Shown here piece after piece: positions 5,820-28,808 of a DNA stretch of 64,000 nt (the first letter of the stretch is position 1; every line of letters begins with the position of its first letter). Below the pieces are notes generated by a model that was not told the origin of the DNA, did not search any database, and saw nothing but the letters and a program-made list of their open reading frames with translations. This DNA comes from Paralichthys olivaceus (lineage: Eukaryota; Chordata; Actinopteri; Pleuronectiformes; Paralichthyidae), in assembly GCF_024713975.1 (NCBI RefSeq), contig NC_091113.1:458501-522500 (forward strand), read 5' to 3'. The position numbers and the translations under genes are program-made.

Positions 5820-7952
5820 ATGAGCCGGAGCAGCCCGCTGCGGGCGCACCACTTCCTGCTCAAGTTCCTGCTGGTGGGAGACAGCGACGTGGGGAAGGGA
5901 GAGATCCTGGAGAGTCTGCAGGGGGGGGGGTCCGAGTCCCCCTACGGGTACAACATGGGTGAGTGGGGGGAGAGTGAGGGGAGAGAGAGGGGAGAGAGAG
6001 GGGGAGGAGTGTGAGGGGGTGAGAGAGTGAGGGGGGTGAGTGTGAGGGAGAGAGTGAGGGAGAGAGTGAGGGAGAGAGTGAGGGGGGTGAGTGTGAGGGG
6101 GTGAGAGAGTGAGAGAGTGAGGGGGGTGAGTGAGAGGAGAGTGAGAGTGAGGGGGTGAGTGAGAGGAGTGTGAGGGGGTGAGAGAGTGAGAGAGTGAGGG
6201 AGAGTGTGAGAGAGGGAGAGTGAGGGGGGTGAGTGAGAGGAGATTATATCTATAATATTAAGTAATAAATCTATGTATATATCTATAATATAAAGATCTA
6301 TGTATATATCTATAATATAAAGATCTATGTATATATCTATAATATAAAGATCTATGTATATATCTATAATATAAAGATCTATGTATATATCTATTATATA
6401 AAGATCTATGTATATATCTATAATATACAGATCTATGTATATATCTATAATATAAAGATCTATGTATATATCTATATAAAGATCTATGTATATATCTATT
6501 ATATAAAGATCTATGTATATATCTATAATATAAAGATCTATGTATATATCTATTATATAAAGATCTATGTATATATCTATTATATAAAGATCTATGTATA
6601 TATCTATAATATAAAGATCTATGTATATATCTATTATATAAAGATCTATGTATATATCTATAATATAAAGATCTATGTATATATCTATAATATACAGATC
6701 TATGTATATATCTATAATATAAAGATCTATGTATATATCTATATAAAGACGGAGCATGTGACCATAGACTTCAACACATTAACACAATAAATCTTTTTCA
6801 TATTTCACACATGGAGCTGACTGAGGGGGCGGAGCAAGAGAGGAGGTCAAAGGTCAGGGGTGAAAGTACATCTGAGTCAAGTCTGAGACTGAAACCGTCA
6901 CGTTATAAAAACATACGTGAACATTTTCTGAGGTTCTGGATCAGAACCTGAAGCTGATGATGATGTTTGAGGAGAATGTGGCGAGCTGATGGAAACACAG
7001 CCATGTCTGCTGTTTCTGGGTCAGCTCGTTAACTGGAGGCCCGGCGGCAGGAGCAGACATGGCTGTGGTCGGCTGAAGTTTAGTGGTCGGCTGAAGTTTT
7101 GTGGTCGGCTGAAGTTTAGTGGTCGGCTGAAGTTTAGTGGTCGGCTGAAGTTTAGTGGTCGGATTGTTCGGAGCGGCGGCTGCCTTCACTGACACCGGCC
7201 CAACGTCCAGAGAAGAGCTGCGGTTAGAGGAGGACGCCAGAACCACAGCGAGCGACCACGCAGGCCAAGAAGAATGCTCTCTAACAGAGCTCCGTTTCTG
7301 TGATTGGCTCTACAGCTGATGGTCATTACTCACAAACGGGACGTGGAGAGAAGCCAGCGCTCGCTTGTTTTAACTCCCATGATCCTCTCTGTTTCATAAC
7401 ATCTTTCTGCTTGTTGTGTAACTTCACAACAACTCTGCTCTCCATGTTCTGAACGAGAGCGAGAAGCCAAAGCTTTGAAAATCCCAGAGATCCTCAGGAA
7501 GAGTGTGTGTGTTAGTGTGTGTTAGTGTGTGTTACAGTGTGTGTGTGTGTTAGTGTGTGTTACAGTGTGTTACAGTGTGTGTGTGTGTTAGTGTGTGTTA
7601 CAGTGTGTTAGTGTGTGTTACAGTGTGTGTTAGTGTGTGTTACAGTGTGTGTGTGTGTGTTACAGTGTGTGTGTTACAGTGTGTGTGTGTGACAGTGTGT
7701 GTTACAGTGTGTGTGTGTGTGTTACAGTGTGTGTTACAGTGTGTGTGTGTTAGTGTGTGTTACAGTGTGTCTGTTACAGTGTGTGTGTGTTAGTGTGTGT
7801 TACAGTGTGTGTGTTACAGTGTGTGTGTTACAGTGTGTGTTACAGTGTGTGTTACAGTGTGTGTTACAGTGTGTGTGTGTTAGTGTGTGTTACAGTGTGT
7901 CTGTTACAGTGTGTGTGTGTTACAGTGTGTGTTACAGTGTGTGTGTGTGTTA

Positions 7953-11200: not shown

Positions 11201-13149
11201 ATGAGTCACAACAACCCACACACACACACACACACACACACACTTTTATGTTTTATAACCTGATTCCTCGTCTCTGGACTGAAGGTGAGAAACATTTCTC
11301 TTTGAAGGATGTTAAGACACATATTTAATGTGGAACTAACATGTGGACACATGAAGAGACACTGACAGTTGTTGTCTTCAGTTATCAACATGTGGACACA
11401 TGAAGAGACACTGACAGTTGTTGTCTTCAGTTATTAACATGTGGACACATGAAGAGACAGTTGTCTTCAGTTTTAGTAAAACAAGGAGCAGGAACACAGA
11501 TGCTGTCATGTCACAGTTTCACCTTCAGACACAACTCAGGGCCAAAAACTATAAAGTATATTTCAAATTTTATATCAAAATCGTACCTTTTTCCCAGCAT
11601 GCCCCAGGGGTGCCTAAGATCCTGGTGGGGAACCGTCTCCATCTGGCCTACAAGCGTCAGGTGACCACGGAGCAGGCGCAGGTGTACGCTGAGAAACTGG
11701 GCGTCACCTTTTTCGAGGTCAGTCCGCTGTGTAACTTCAACATCACCGAGTCGTTCACTGAGCTCGCCAGAGTCGTGCTGATGAGACACGGCATGGAGCG
11801 ACTGTGGAGGCCCAACAAAGGTCTGCACATACATGTCACTGTGGGAACACACGTGTCACAGTGGGAACATACATACGTGTCACTGTGGGAACATACATAC
11901 GTGTCACTGTGGGAACATACATACGTGTCACTGTGTGAACATACGTGTCACTGTGGGAACATACGTGTCACAGTGGGAACATACATACGTGTCACTGTGG
12001 GAACATACATACGTGTCACTGTGGGAACATACATACGTGTCACTGTGGGAACATACATGTCACAGTGGGAACATACATACGTGTCACTGTGGGAACATAC
12101 ATGTCACAGTGGGAACATACATACGTGTCACTGTGGGAACATACATACGTGTCACTGTGGGAACATACATACGTGTCACTGTGGGAACATACATGTCACA
12201 GTGGGAACATACATACGTGTCACTGTGGGAACATACATACGTGTCACTGTGGGAACATACATACGTGTCACTGTGGGAACATACATGTCACAGTGGGAAC
12301 ATACATACGTGTCACTGTGGGAACATACATACGTGTCACTGTGGGAACATACATACGTGTCACTGTGGGAACATACATGTCACAGTGGGAACATACATAC
12401 GTGTCACTGTGGGAACATACATACGTGTCACTGTGGGAACATACATACGTGTCACTGTGGGAACATACATGTCACAGTGGGAACATACATACGTGTCACA
12501 GTGGGAACATACATATGTGTCACTGTGGGAACATACGTGTCACTGTGGGAACATACGTGTCACTGTGGGAACATACATACGTGTCACTGTGGGAACATAC
12601 TATATTTATAATCGCCGGAGAACATCATCATGCTGACGTCCATAAATCACAGAAACTAGAAGCTGCTTGTAGTTTCAGAATAGTTTTCTTCAGAATCACA
12701 ATGATCTGGTGACAGTTTTCAGTTTTCATTATTTGTTTCTGCTGAAAACAAAAAGCCTTAAAGATCCAAACTGTTCTAAAAGTTTTACACAAAGTTTCCA
12801 TCGCGTCCTCAAAGGTTTGCAGTTTGCATTAGCAGGTCTGTGCTGCCCTCTGCTGGACAACAGTAAAAATACCACACACATTCTCACAAATGGTTGAATT
12901 TTAGAGGCACAGTGACGAACAGTTTCATTCAGCATGTATTTCACTTTTTTCTACAGTTTATTTGTGTATGTAACGAGGGAACGCTTGTCCTCCAGGTTCG
13001 GTCTGTGACGTCTTCAGAGCGAAATCAATATCATTGGTTGGTTGATTGATTGATTGGTTGGTTGAATGATTGATTGATTGGTTGATTGATTGGTTGATTG
13101 GTTGATTGATTGGTTGATTGGTTGACTGATTGATTGATTGGTTGATTGG

Positions 13150-16134: not shown

Positions 16135-16429
16135 ATGGCGCGGTGCTGGTGGTTTCTGATCCACTGTCTCCTCCTCGCTTCATCCTTCGCTCACAATGAC
16201 TTCTTCACCTCCATCGGTGAGTTTCTGTCCTGATACAATGAATCACTGACATGAAAACACACACGTCCCCTCTGCTCACATGGAGGAGGTGGAATTCACC
16301 ATCTACATTGCAGCCAGCCACCAGGGGGCGATCAAGATGATAAGGTTTAACTTTCAGGAGGCGTCATGTCGTCCATCTTTATTTACAGTGTGATTTAATG
16401 CCATTACAGTTCAAGTGTGTGTGTGTGTG

Positions 16430-16473
<44 letters not shown>

Positions 16474-17058
16474 CAGGTCAGATGACCGACCTGCTGTTCA
16501 CAGAGAAGGACCTGGTCACGTCTCTGAAGGACTACATCCGAGCGGAGGAGAACAAACTGGAGAAAATAAAAAAGTGCGACATTTTATTTTATAGGCAACA
16601 ACTTGGTTTAAGAAAAGTGATTAGATTTTCTTTAATTAAACTCCAGTGTGATGTCGAGCAACAATTAAAAGTTAGACTCTGAGTAAAGGAACCTTTTTGA
16701 ATCAAAGAGTTTTTGTTCCTGGTTGAACCTGTTTCTGAAGAACTGTCTCAGTCTGGTACCAAACAAAACTCACGTTCAGGTTTGACTCAAACTTTATCAG
16801 CCCAAAGATTTAAAAATAGTCCCGTTGTGTTTGTGCTGCAGGTGAAAGACGAGTCATGTGTATCGTATCTAAAGCGTGTTGTCTGTCTGTGTGTGTCTGT
16901 GTGTAGATGGACTCATAAACTAGACGTCCTCTCAGCTGCTGCCACTCAGGACCCTGAGGGTTTCCTGGGACACCCGGTGAACGCCTTCAAGCTGATGAAG
17001 AGACTCAACACTGAGTGGGCGGAGCTGGAGAGTCTGGTGCTGACGGACGTGTCTGATG

Positions 17059-17094
<36 letters not shown>

Positions 17095-18953
17095 ACACAC
17101 AGACACACAGCGGGACAGCAGCAGCCTCAGTGTGTGTGTGTGTGTGTGTGTGTGTGTTGCAGCGTTCATCTCTAACCTCACCATCCAGAGGCAGCACTTC
17201 CCAAACGATGACGACCAGACGGGAGCCGCCAAAGCTCTGATGAGGCTTCAGGACACGTACCAGCTCGACACCGACACCATCTCCACCGGACAGCTGCCAG
17301 GTCGGCACCATGTTTCTATCCAAACCACCTGAGATCAAAGTCACTCGAGATGAGCTGAACAAAGGGAAAAAGTCTGAATTGATTTAACATCTTTTGATTG
17401 ATTTCAATAACAAACGAGTGTCGACAATAAATAAAGAGAAAAACTAAACCATAAACACAATTTAACTTTCAGCTACAAAGTGAAGCAGTTTGACATAAAG
17501 TCGTAATATTCAAAGAGAAACTATGTCACCTTCAGAAGTGGATTTGATATTTTAACAGGAAGTAGTTTGACCTTGAGTTATCTCTGTTTACTCTTTGTAC
17601 TTTAGTTAAAACTGGTGTCGGCCTCAGATCAGTGAATTCAGGGAGTCGAGCTTTAGTGTTTCCAGCAGAAGTTTCCTGCTGTGGTCTAACGTCATCGGTC
17701 CATTTAAAAGTTCGACATATTTTCCTCCTCTCTCTGTTTCCTGCTCAGGCTCGTCCTCGGCCACTTCGCACCAGAGTCATCTGACGGTGGACGACTGCTA
17801 CGACCTTGGGAAGGTGGCGTACTCGGAGGCGGACTATTACCACACGGAGGTTTGGATGATCCAGGCCCTGAAGCAGCTGGACCAGGGAGAGACGTCCAGG
17901 GCCGTGGACGCCGTCACCATCCTGGACTACCTGAGCTTCTCAGTGTACCAGCAGGGGGAGCTGGAGAGGGCGCTGGAGTTCACAAAGAGGCTGCTTGAGC
18001 TCGGTCGGTAGCGACTCACATGACACCTTTCTGAAATATGTGTTTATATTGAGCTTCAGTCGTTTACGACCTCTGTGATGATTCTGTGTTTAGATGCGAC
18101 GCACCAGCGAGCGAACGGGAACCTGAAGTACTTTGAGTACCAGCTGGCCAAGCAGAAGAAGATGGAGGAGGCCGAGGGGAGGGAGACGAGGGAGACGAGG
18201 GATCGACCTGACGATTACCTGCCGGAGAGGAAGAGCTACGAGCAGCTGTGTCGAGGCGAAGGCATCAGGATGGTGAGGAGAGAAAAAAACCATGAACACA
18301 CGTTCTTCATCTTCACACTCAGTCTGATCATCTTTCTGTCAGACGCCGCGCAGGCAGAGCCGCCTCTTCTGCCGTTACTACGACAACAGCCGCCACCCGA
18401 GGTACGTAATTGGTCCGGTGAAGCAGGAAGACGAGTGGGACCGCCCCCGCATCGTACGCTATCATGACATCGTGTCGGACAAAGAGATGCAGAAGGTGAA
18501 GGAGCTGGCGAAACCCAGGGTGAGTGGAACTGAAGCTGCAGCGGTGAGCACAAAGAAACTCATCTGTGTCCAGTCGCTCTGAGTTTCCCTGTAACTCTCA
18601 GCCCATTGGCTCCACAGCTGCGTCGAGCGACCATCTCCAACCCCGTGACCGGCGTCCTGGAGACGGCCCACTACCGCATCAGTAAGAGGTAAGAGCTTCC
18701 GGAGGGGGAGACGACAGAAAACCCCTCTCCTAACCTGTCTCCCCCTCTCTATCTGTGTGTGTCTCTCTCTCTCTGTCTCTCTGTGTGTGTGTTTCTGTCT
18801 CTCTCTCTCTGTCTTTCTGTCTCTGTCTCTCTGTCTCTGTCTCTCTCTTTCTGTCTCTCTGTGTGTGTGTTTCTGTCTCTCTCTCTCTGTCTTTCTGTCT
18901 CTGTCTCTCTGTCTCTGTCTCTCTCTTTCTGTCTCTCTCTCTCTGTCTTTCTG

Positions 18954-18986
<33 letters not shown>

Positions 18987-21257
18987 GTCCCTCGCTCTCT
19001 GTAACTCTCTGTGATTGGTGCGGTAGCTCAGACGTGCCACGGTGCATGACCCTCACAGAAGTTCAGTCTGAATCGAATGATCTGCTGAGGCGACGAACAC
19101 GAGAACATCTGTAAATCAACACTATTTAAATTTTCCATCTTAAAGAAGAAGTTTGATCAGAGTCAGATCCTGACGTGGACGAGTTCGATTAAATCATCTG
19201 AAAAGTGAATGTGATCGTTGAAGGTTCAGTTTTCTGGATGAAATCTTTGTCTAAAACTCAGACTGTGACGTTCGTCACTTCCAGGTGAACGCAGGTCGTC
19301 CACCACAGTCACAGATATAAAATCCATCTCCGTCTGTATCTGTGTCCTCCTGCTCGTCCTCCTGCTCGTCCTCCTGCTCGTCCTCCTGCTCGTCCTCCTG
19401 CTCGTCCTGCTGCTCTCTGGCCTCCGTGTGCCGGTTTGTTTCTATGACGCTTGGTGTGATCAATCTTCTTCCTCCTGTCTCCTCTCAGCGCCTGGCTCGG
19501 AGCCCATGAGCATCCAGTGGTGGACCAGATCAACCAGAGGATCGAGGACATCACGGGTCTGGACGTCACCACGGCCGAGGACCTGCAGGTAACGCTCGCC
19601 CGGTTGAACGATGACGTGTTCTCTTGAGTCAGCTGCAGCTCCTGTGTCACCGTGGAAACACTTTCAAACTATTAAAAGAACAAATGGTTTGTTGATGATT
19701 AAATTCATCAATAGATTTGTATTTGCTGTCAAACTGCAGAAATCAAATTCTCGTGTTTCTTTTATTCAGTAAGTACTTGACAAAGATTTAAAGATTTAGG
19801 TGTCGGAGTAAAATCCTCACCAGAAACTTGATTCAGCTCATGGTTGTATTTTGTGTCTGTGTTTATTTACTGCGTGTGCGCAGGTTGCTAACTATGGTGT
19901 CGGAGGACAGTACGAGCCTCATTTTGACTTTGGACGGGTAAATATGAAACTTTATGTATTTAAATTTTTATTGTTGCTTCATAACTAAACTCACACAGAT
20001 CAGATCAGATGATAAACTCTTGTAATGTGGTTTTATTCAGTTCTGCTGCTGGAGGTTACTTTTCTTCAAGATGAATCAGCTGATTATTGGACAGAGTTAC
20101 TCACCTGATCCTGTTTGAATCTAAAATAAAAACCATAACATCCATTCTTCTTTTGGGAAAAATGATGAATTCTCTTTGAGCTGAGATTTGAGATATGAAG
20201 CGTTTGAAGATTCTCCAGGAAATGACATCACAGGAAGAAGAAGAAGTGTTTCCTTTATATAAAGTCTAAGACGTAGACACGGGGAACTTTTCGCTCCGAC
20301 ACGCAGGTTGACCCACTGACCTGTTGACCCACTGACCTGTTGACCCACTGACCTGTTGTCCTGATTTTGCAGAAGGACGAACCGGACGCGTTCAAGGAGC
20401 TGGGGACAGGAAACAGAATCGCTACGTGGCTTCTTTACGTCAGTGAGCGTCTCTGTGAGTTTTCACGTGTTCGGCTGCTGCAGCTCAGACTCATTAAGCC
20501 TCTGATTCTTCTGCTGCAGATGAGCGACGTGCAGGCAGGGGGCGCCACAGTCTTCACTGATGTCCGAGCTGCCATCTGGCCCAAAAAGGTGCCGTTCACT
20601 CCCAAAGATCAAAGTAGACGAGATGAGACGTAGCGTGAATTAGTTTTGTGTTAATTCAAAGTTTTTATTGTTGGTTTTGTAATTTACATCATTTAAAGAT
20701 TTGTTTCAGAAATAAAAGAAATACATCAATTTCTATTGATAATTAATAAAAGTTAAACTGACGTCAAACAAAAATAAACTTTAAGAGAAAAAAACGTAAT
20801 AAAAAAAAGTAAATTATTGATCGATCATAAAAAAGACAAAAGTTTCTGGTTCCAGCTTCTGAAAGAAAAAGATCTTTGAGACTCATCCGTCGATCAGGAG
20901 AATAATCGATAATGGAACTAGTTTTTATTCTTTAATGAGTTGATGCTTGACTTGATTATTGATTATTGGTTATCAGAGGATCTAGAAATGAATTGACGGA
21001 TGTTGGTGCGTCCTCAGGGGACGGCAGTGTTCTGGTACAATCTGTACCCCAGCGGTGACGGAGACTATCGGACCAGACACGCCGCCTGTCCGGTTCTCGT
21101 TGGAAACAAGTGGGGTGAGGTCGTCAATCCTGTGTTGGAGTTTTACTTTGTTCGAGATGAGTCTCACGCTGTCTTTGTCTCTGCAGTGTCTAATAAGTGG
21201 ATCCATGAACGAGGACAGGAGTTCAGGAGACGCTGTGGCCTTCAGGAGACGGACTGA
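16135..21257 (+). CDS. p4ha1: Prolyl 4-hydroxylase subunit alpha-1
   Basis: Catalytic subunit of the ER collagen prolyl 4-hydroxylase (alpha2-beta2 with PDI), using Fe(II), 2-oxoglutarate and ascorbate. Coding exons: 16135-16216, 16477-16573, 16907-17058, 17163-17300, 17749-18003, 18094-18272, 18343-18519, 18618-18688, 19489-19588, 19884-19937, 20373-20438, 20520-20588, 21018-21114 and 21187-21257, giving 535 residues (human about 534). A signal peptide (about 1-18) ends before HNDFFTSIG. The dimerisation and peptide-binding TPR regions include [17 protein letters not shown]. The catalytic domain has Fe ligands H430, D432 (EPHFDF) and H501 (TRHAACP), and 2-oxoglutarate lysine K511 (VGNKW). 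The C-terminus [15 protein letters not shown] is conserved. [18 protein letters not shown] marks P4HA1 rather than P4HA2. Only one of the two mutually exclusive 71-bp exons is intact (ATISNP type, 18618-18688). Confidence 0.95.
16267..16391 (+). mobile_element. Dispersed short repeat copy in p4ha1 intron
   Basis: Carries ACATGGAGGAGG, GCAGCCAGCCACCAGGGGGC, GATCAAGATG and CATGTCGTCCATCTTTATTT in the same order as the copies at 4783-4910 and 61973-62070. It lies inside the intron before exon 16477-16573. Confidence 0.7.
16419..16476 (+). repeat. (TG)n in place of a polypyrimidine tract before a p4ha1 exon
   Basis: About 25 TG units run directly into TTTCAG at the acceptor of exon 16477. Only three T residues and one C lie between the TG run and the AG. 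A short ACACACAC block lies at about 16258, near the 5' end of the same intron. Confidence 0.9.
17059..17162 (+). repeat. 104-bp p4ha1 intron with complementary (CA)n and (TG)n ends
   Basis: The intron begins GTACACACAC with a CA-rich tract to about 17109 and ends with a (TG)n tract (about 17130-17157) followed by TTGCAG. The two tracts are complementary, so the donor and acceptor can be drawn together by a long RNA stem with a loop of about 20-30 nt. The polypyrimidine tract is almost absent. Confidence 0.9.
18755..19000. repeat. CTCTGTCT-rich tandem array in p4ha1 intron
   Basis: Imperfect CTCTCTGTCTTTCTGTCTCTG repeats in the intron after exon 18618-18688. Frames across it on either strand are artefacts. 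Confidence 0.9.
19027..19053 (+). pseudogene. Relic of the alternative (second) 71-bp exon of p4ha1
   Basis: Right after an acceptor-like GCGGTAG, nine codons read LRRATVHDP, the start of the known alternative P4HA1 exon (LSRATVHDPETGK... in mammals). They are in the expected phase 0 and lie in the intron following the intact exon that starts LRRATISNP. Homology then fades: the frame reaches TGA six codons later, and no donor lies at the expected 71-bp position (19097/19098). The exon is therefore broken and could not be used as a normal mutually exclusive exon. Confidence 0.7.
19328..19410. repeat. 12-bp GTCCTCCTGCTC tandem repeat in p4ha1 intron
   Basis: Six to seven near-identical copies of CTCGTCCTCCTG about 80 bp before the acceptor of exon 19489-19588. 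Confidence 0.9.
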
Positions 21258-27517: not shown

Positions 27518-27589
27518 CGTGATTATATATACAACCAAGTTAATCATGTTAAATTCAGATTCATTTTATTTTCACTTCATTAATATAAT

Positions 27590-28208
27590 ACTAATAATAA
27601 TATACTATCAATAATAATATACTACCAATAATAATATACTTCCAATAATAATATAATACCAATAATGATATACTACCAATAATGATATACTACCAATAAT
27701 GATATACTACCAATAATAATATACTACCAATAATAATATAATACCAATAATAATATAATACCAATAATGATATACTACCAATAATAATATACTACCAATA
27801 ATAATATAATACCAATAATAATATACTACCAATAATAATATACTACCAATAATAATATAATACCAATAATAATATACTACCAATAATAATATAATACCAA
27901 TAATAATATACTACCAATAATAATATAATACCAATAATAATATAATACCAATAATGATATAATACCAATAATAATATACTACCAATAATAATATACTACC
28001 AATAATAATATAATACCAATAATAATATACTACCAATAATAATATACTACCAATAATAATATAATACCAATAATAATATAATACCAATAATAATATACTA
28101 CCAATAATGATATAATACCAATAATAATATACTACCAATAATAATATAATACCAATAATAATATACTATCAATAATAATATACTACCAATAATAATATAC
28201 TACCAATA
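27590..28208. repeat. 17-bp AT-rich minisatellite
   Basis: About 36 copies of TACCAATAATAATATAC, alternating with versions ending ATAA or containing GATAT. It is the largest array between arg2 and the dopamine receptor. Confidence 0.95.
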
Positions 28209-28808
28209 ACAGTAATAGTAATATTCTCTTCACTCAGTGAAATGTATCACTTCCGTCAGAATATCAAATTAAAAGTCTTTATAATGAGATGATGTAACAG
28301 AAGAAAACTTTACTTTTGAACAGTTTCTGCTGCACAGACTCTGCACCACAGCGCCCCCTGCTGCACAGACTCTGCACCACAGCGCCCCCTGCTGCACAGA
28401 CTCTGCACCACAGTGGAGGACAGCGTGAGGACACTCATTGACATACATTCCCCAAAAACCCTTATACTTACCTGAACCATCCAAACTAATGTCTGACTCT
28501 AAAACCTAAAAGTCTTAACCCTCAGACGAGACACTGGAAAAGTGAGGACCAGAGAAAATGTCCTCACAATGATGCTATTGAACCAAAATTGGTCCTCATT
28601 ACTATAGATGTTCTCTCACACACACACTCTTCCTGTGAGTAACACACTGCTCATACAATCATCATCTGATTGATATGGAGTACTTGTTATTCACACTGTG
28701 TGTGTGTGTGTGTGTGTGTGTCCTCACTCTGTGGACCACTGATGAGCCTCTCCACTTCTTAAATGATCTTGTGTCCTTAAGCGATGATGCTGATCTCCAC
28801 CAGCTCGT

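Follow-up and report, generated by a model that had tools for sequence, protein, structure and literature searches.

The 64-kb stretch of DNA analyzed here (the window) derives from contig NC_091113.1 of Paralichthys olivaceus, referred to as C21, and carries on its + strand a p4ha1-type gene for an alpha subunit of collagen prolyl 4-hydroxylase (Table 1). Its 14 coding exons give a spliced translation of 535 residues that runs from ATG to TGA without an internal stop. The catalytic domain is open throughout, with residues 282-535 aligning to the human P4HA2 catalytic chain (PDB 7zsc). We focus on the region where vertebrate P4HA1 genes carry two mutually exclusive 71-bp exons, named here after the motifs ATISNP and ATVHDP. 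In the window gene, the ATISNP exon is complete while 26 nucleotides (nt) of the ATVHDP exon are recognizable. Collectively, the data make it very probable that this gene has lost the last 45 nt and the donor of its second mutually exclusive exon, most likely leaving it with a single version of the active-site hairpin loop.

The sequence-only reading of the window had described the ATISNP exon as an intact 71-bp exon at 18618-18688 behind an intron of 98 bp (18520-18617), and the spliced gene model bears out both statements. It also placed a relic of the second exon at 19027-19053. Here the nine codons LRRATVHDP do follow in phase directly after a TAG, with frame 0 continuing through HRSSV to a stop, but the 3′ limit has to be moved to 19052, since base 19053 already differs from the paralogue on contig C14 (CCT vs CCC). 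LRRATVHDP is the sole 9/9 match in the six frames of the window, the runner-up being the ATISNP exon (6/9). At the nucleotide level, 22 of the 26 positions agree with the intact C14 ATVHDP exon, the four differences all falling within codons 1-3; the next best site on either strand of the window reaches 17/26. A local alignment of the 800-nt window intron with the corresponding C14 region, with pyrimidine runs of at least 10 masked, gives as best segment exactly 19023-19052, i.e., GTAG plus 26 nt or eight codons and two bases (score 40; maximum among 200 shuffles, 28). An origin of the relic as a copy of the gene's own ATISNP exon was rejected, with 14/27 matches to that exon vs 22/26 to the ATVHDP exon. 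The final 17 nt of the relic (19036-19052) match C14 (locus L028, 4193-4177, minus strand) at every base.

Beyond base 26 the similarity stops. Comparison of the rest of the exon with the next 70 nt gave local p values of 0.96 against simulated sequence and 0.82 against other window stretches, and the expected donor position reads GAACACGAG. The remaining 15 residues (45 nt) were not found elsewhere in the window either, where the best peptide match besides the ATISNP exon scores 25 of 74 points and the best DNA match is 26/45. The relic is thus a sharp 3′ truncation with donor loss, which does not look like a product of gradual decay, and the window gene no longer has two homologous exons of equal length, its second member being 26 nt long and devoid of a donor. 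Several other explanations of this break were tried. The sequence-only reading had kept an assembly gap or sequence error at 19054-19097 as its alternative; a one- or two-base reading error is ruled out because the missing 45 nt are absent from every frame and strand of the window and unrecognizable just after the break. Displacement or inversion of the 3′ part within the window found no match by peptide or by DNA. Insertion of a transposon splitting the exon is unsupported, as the rest of the intron matches other genome sites only at 19327-19425, a 12-bp tandem repeat, in a search that skips simple repeats. Finally, a cryptic donor that would keep the frame ahead of the stop was sought among the GTs at exon lengths 7, 15, 34, and 39; these leave remainders of 1, 0, 1, and 0, where 2 is required.

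The genome searched comprises 588 Mb in 25 contigs. Its C14 paralogue keeps both exons, ATISNP followed by ATVHDP, each 71 bp long and with the donor GTAAGG. The pair is whole in the sister copy and a remnant in the window copy; within this genome, the loss of the ATVHDP exon is specific to the window paralogue. The loss of an alternative exon in this paralogue, as proposed from the sequence-only reading, therefore holds in the comparison with C14, where both exons have acceptors and donors. Because C14 still carries both, the genome as a whole retains the ATVHDP form. The ATISNP exons of the two copies are identical at 55 of 71 nt and differ in amino acid at 2 of 23 codons. A p4ha2-type gene on contig C15 keeps a different pair, one exon of 60 nt and one of 66 nt, both flanked by AG and GTAAGT, which we take to match exons 12a/12b of human P4HA2. 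Hence, exon pairs have not been lost in all p4ha genes of this genome. P4HA2 splice variants and exon 12b are named in the sections consulted of PMC9676403.

Table 1. Positions of the p4ha1-type gene, its exon pair, and the corresponding exons of its paralogues (window coordinates unless a locus is given)
Feature	Position	Strand	Remarks
p4ha1-type gene (collagen prolyl 4-hydroxylase alpha subunit)	16135..21257	+	AG before and GT after every inner exon
ATISNP exon, first of the pair	18618..18688	+	71 bp, phase 0 to 2, 23 residues; flanked by AG and GTAAGA
AG-free, pyrimidine-rich CT/TG zone before the relic	18718..19024	+	AG-exclusion zone of 307 nt
Acceptor GTAG of the lost exon	19023..19026	+	same in the C14 paralogue
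Relic of the ATVHDP exon (bases 1-26)	19027..19052	+	22 of 26 nt as in the intact exon on C14; 4 differences, all synonymous
Expected place of the exon's missing 45 nt	19053..19097	+	no significant similarity; no GT donor at the expected position
Next constitutive exon	19489..19588	+	joined in frame by the ATISNP exon (spliced translation)
C14 ATISNP exon	L028 5042-4972	minus	71 bp, donor GTAAGG
C14 ATVHDP exon	L028 4202-4132	minus	71 bp, donor GTAAGG; intron between the pair 769 nt
C15 pair	L029 6936-6995 (RPFDRQLKVDGNRLATFLNY) and 7066-7131 (22 residues)		ending GNRLATFLNY and GNRVATFLNY

The relic begins 16 nt after a CT/TG tandem array (approximately 18748-19010, about 250 nt; units of 14 and 78 nt), and the break lies 42 nt past the end of the array. 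With 18500-19200 as query, the genome search returned 116 matches, of which the 115 non-self matches all fall within 18730-19016; the array belongs to a repeat type that is common in the genome. The intact C14 ATVHDP exon also follows a long tract of this kind. Its AG-exclusion zone, the AG-free stretch ahead of the acceptor, is 167 nt long vs 307 nt before the relic, and the pyrimidine share of the last 150 nt is 80% vs 85%. This likeness raises the possibility that the array may have grown from an older regulatory tract. The sequence-only reading had seen a CT repeat expanding next to the relic; the array is there, but it could be a longer form of a tract that the intact exon has too. Two observations speak against an origin from a regulatory tract: AG-free runs of at least 300 nt also occur at two other simple-repeat sites on the + strand of the window and at one site on the minus strand, and the zones of human P4HA1 10a/10b are short, 44 and 26 nt, in Table 1 of PMC5224494. 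The longest AG-free stretch on the + strand of the window spans 653 nt (27558-28210) and consists of AATAATAATATACTACC-like repeats. The window gene has 13 regular acceptors; the zone measures 14-64 nt at 12 of them and 172 nt at that of exon 9. The acceptor of the exon at 19489 has an unusually long AG-free zone of 172 nt (window 19314-19488), which contains a 12-bp GTCCTCCTGCTC tandem repeat. By motif match only, candidate branch points are, in C21, a CTAAC located 45 nt downstream of the ATISNP donor (294 nt upstream of the relic) and, in C14, sites about 101-135 nt upstream of the ATVHDP exon.

To place the gene, human P4HA1 and P4HA2 chains were compared. Human P4HA1, over its N-terminal part (PDB 4bta), is identical to the window gene at 170 of 227 positions (74.9%) vs 117 of 188 (62.2%) for the C15 p4ha2-type gene, while for the catalytic chain of human P4HA2 (7zsc) identity is 201/249 (80.7%) to the C15 gene vs 175/252 (69.4%) to the window gene. 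These alignments indicate that the window gene is of the P4HA1 type, resembling P4HA1 more than P4HA2. Querying the genome with the C-terminal 175 residues (E up to 0.001) identified four p4ha genes, on C21, C14, C15, and C11; the last is more distant and is presumably p4ha3. A PDB search with a single short exon gave no match. In an alignment of the C21 and C14 genes over 493 codons, 110 of 161 fourfold sites are different, the synonymous distance is saturated (NG86 dS 3.95), and the nonsynonymous distance (dN) is 0.14. In a four-taxon test of the N-terminal part, grouping of C14 with human was favored (resampling of estimated log-likelihoods, RELL, 0.73), and the C21 plus C14 grouping was not rejected (p 0.29 in the approximately unbiased, AU, test). 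The C21/C14 duplication may be the teleost duplication or an earlier one.

The relic has accumulated no amino-acid change relative to C14 across approximately 19.7 nonsynonymous sites, and one of its four fourfold sites differs, vs the 110 of 161 across the genes. The chance of zero changes would be 0.05 at 0.15 neutral substitutions per site and 0.003 at 0.3, assuming that the relic has been free of selection since the loss; the estimate gives a relative age, not years. Because the relic is unchanged in amino acids though the two genes are saturated at synonymous sites, the exon was probably under selection for most of the paralogue's life and lost late, so that the loss would be much younger than the duplication. 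Of the "recent or partial loss" suggested by the sequence-only reading, "recent" thus stands in a relative sense; the event itself looks like a sharp truncation and not gradual decay.

These results suggest the following course of events. The ancestral gene would have carried both mutually exclusive 71-bp exons, as is usual in vertebrates. The final 45 nt of the ATVHDP exon and its donor would then have been removed by a deletion or rearrangement, one breakpoint of which lay after base 26 of this exon. The remnant, lacking a donor, is unlikely to undergo exon definition, and its inclusion would lead to a stop after 14 codons. Because 71 is not divisible by three and skipping would shift the frame, the ATISNP exon would have become effectively constitutive, and the protein would be fixed for a single version of the substrate-binding hairpin loop. 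Four points weigh against this scheme. It relies on the sequence of one genome assembly, and, with only one breakpoint placed, a deletion is the simplest possibility among other rearrangements. A smaller frameshifting deletion of approximately 14 nt plus decay would be permitted by a weak 16-nt match that is anchored at the break (CTCACAGAAGTTCAGT vs CTCACTACAGCCCAGT; p 0.18 and 0.13, not significant). Moreover, the 17 identical nt of the relic could hint at constraint at the nucleotide level, although few sites are involved.

The dependence on one assembly leads to the question of whether the chromosome itself carries a complete ATVHDP exon whose 3′ part the assembly lost or garbled beside the CT array. 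Tandem arrays such as the one 16 nt ahead of the relic are the kind of site where assemblies fail. The break, however, lies beyond the array, the sequence that follows it is found at other genome sites only as the 12-bp repeat mentioned above, and the missing 45 nt are neither in the window nor recognizable after the break, which a one- or two-base error would not achieve. We therefore regard an assembly or sequencing error as unlikely. It is quite unlikely, too, that the relic still serves as a regulatory element, either as a poison exon or as a decoy acceptor, through which productive splicing of the window paralogue would be reduced or timed. Retention of the GTAG acceptor and of the 307-nt AG-free pyrimidine tract is consistent with such a role, as are the 17 nt identical to the paralogue and a candidate donor (CAG/GTGAAC) at 19285, use of which would yield an exon of 258 nt containing an in-frame stop. 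An equally scoring donor, however, is present in 33% of the window's 454-nt stretches, long AG-free runs recur at the other repeat sites noted above, and this suggestion is drawn from sequence. If true, it would mean that a former protein switch has been turned into an on/off dose switch for the window paralogue.

Timing and identity of the relic raise two further alternatives. Loss of an exon in one paralogue after duplication is a known outcome (see the parts consulted of PMC9741552), and the exon might have been lost early, shortly after the genes duplicated, leaving 26 nt that persisted by chance. Given a dS of 3.95 and changes at more than 100 fourfold sites between the genes, yet none in the relic's amino acids, such an ancient loss is very unlikely. 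The shortness of the relic could also suggest a chance match or a stray copy that never was the window gene's own second exon. With the correct intron, order, phase, and acceptor, 9/9 residues and 22/26 nt in agreement, and a unique position in the window, we consider this extremely improbable. Loss, probably late, of the 3′ part and donor of the ATVHDP exon accounts best for the data.

In vertebrate P4HA1, the pair is designated 9a/9b, exons 9/10, or 10a/10b. C14 has it whole; in the window gene, the first member is followed by 26 nt of the second, with order and phase unchanged. With the second member truncated, the gene should no longer be able to alternate between them. The available text of PMC11868403 describes inclusion of P4HA1 9a or 9b and a hypoxia-linked rise of 9a, and it also links 9a to collagen deposition; Table 1 of PMC5224494 includes 10a/10b as a U2AF-responsive homologous pair. 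The order of the exons suggests that the ATISNP exon corresponds to 9a. The 9a-only BsmBI site reported in PMC11868403 agrees with a GAGACG in the window ATISNP exon; this sequence is absent from the C14 ATISNP exon, and the agreement is suggestive only. According to the portion consulted of PMC9676403, alternative splicing of human C-P4H-I alters the catalytic domain in its substrate-binding hairpin loop. Since the variants of the enzyme differ in this loop, the window paralogue should reveal what one hairpin-loop form suffices for.

Among vertebrate splice events, those that involve tandem-duplicated, mutually exclusive exons are mostly of ancient origin and have abundant evidence of function, as stated in the sections consulted of PMC9741552. 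The same sections describe PGM1/PGM5, where after gene duplication one copy keeps both tandem-duplicated exons and the other has lost one. The window gene and C14 show the same arrangement, with the difference that the lost exon is still partly recognizable. For CACNA1F/CACNA1S the partition described there is reciprocal, whereas here it is one-sided, C14 keeping both exons. In OGDH, a long pyrimidine tract with an extended AG-exclusion zone and a distant branch point precedes the second of two mutually exclusive exons, 4a/4b, in the part consulted of PMC7969005; a long zone before the second exon is shared by both p4ha1 copies (167 and 307 nt), where branch points are motif matches only. In duplicated fish mitf genes, alternative exons reportedly degenerate differentially, with complementary loss in the two copies. 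The likeness to p4ha1 would be that an alternative exon decays in one duplicate, and the difference that the p4ha1 loss is one-sided. Loss of this p4ha1 exon in fish was not found in the limited open-licence library searched, judged mostly by titles and abstract beginnings. P4HA1 is absent from the main texts of PMC9741552, PMC7969005, and PMC4465641, and the sections consulted of PMC8146666 and PMC7538616 contain nothing on the ATVHDP exon. The window gene is a new and apparently fresh example of paralogue-specific loss of a tandem exon. A copy caught losing an exon allows the loss to be dated and the order of steps to be seen, with the coding part truncated and the acceptor still present. 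It also raises the question of whether a sister gene that retains both forms permits the loss.

A neighboring gene in the window, which we take to be RAB40-like, has its other genome matches on C5 and C8, and none on C14. An intron of this presumed RAB40-like gene contains a minisatellite of GTGGGAACATACATACGTGTCACT-like units (window 11860-12600). It is open in several frames, and the resulting open reading frames of 257-398 codons carry no coding evidence.

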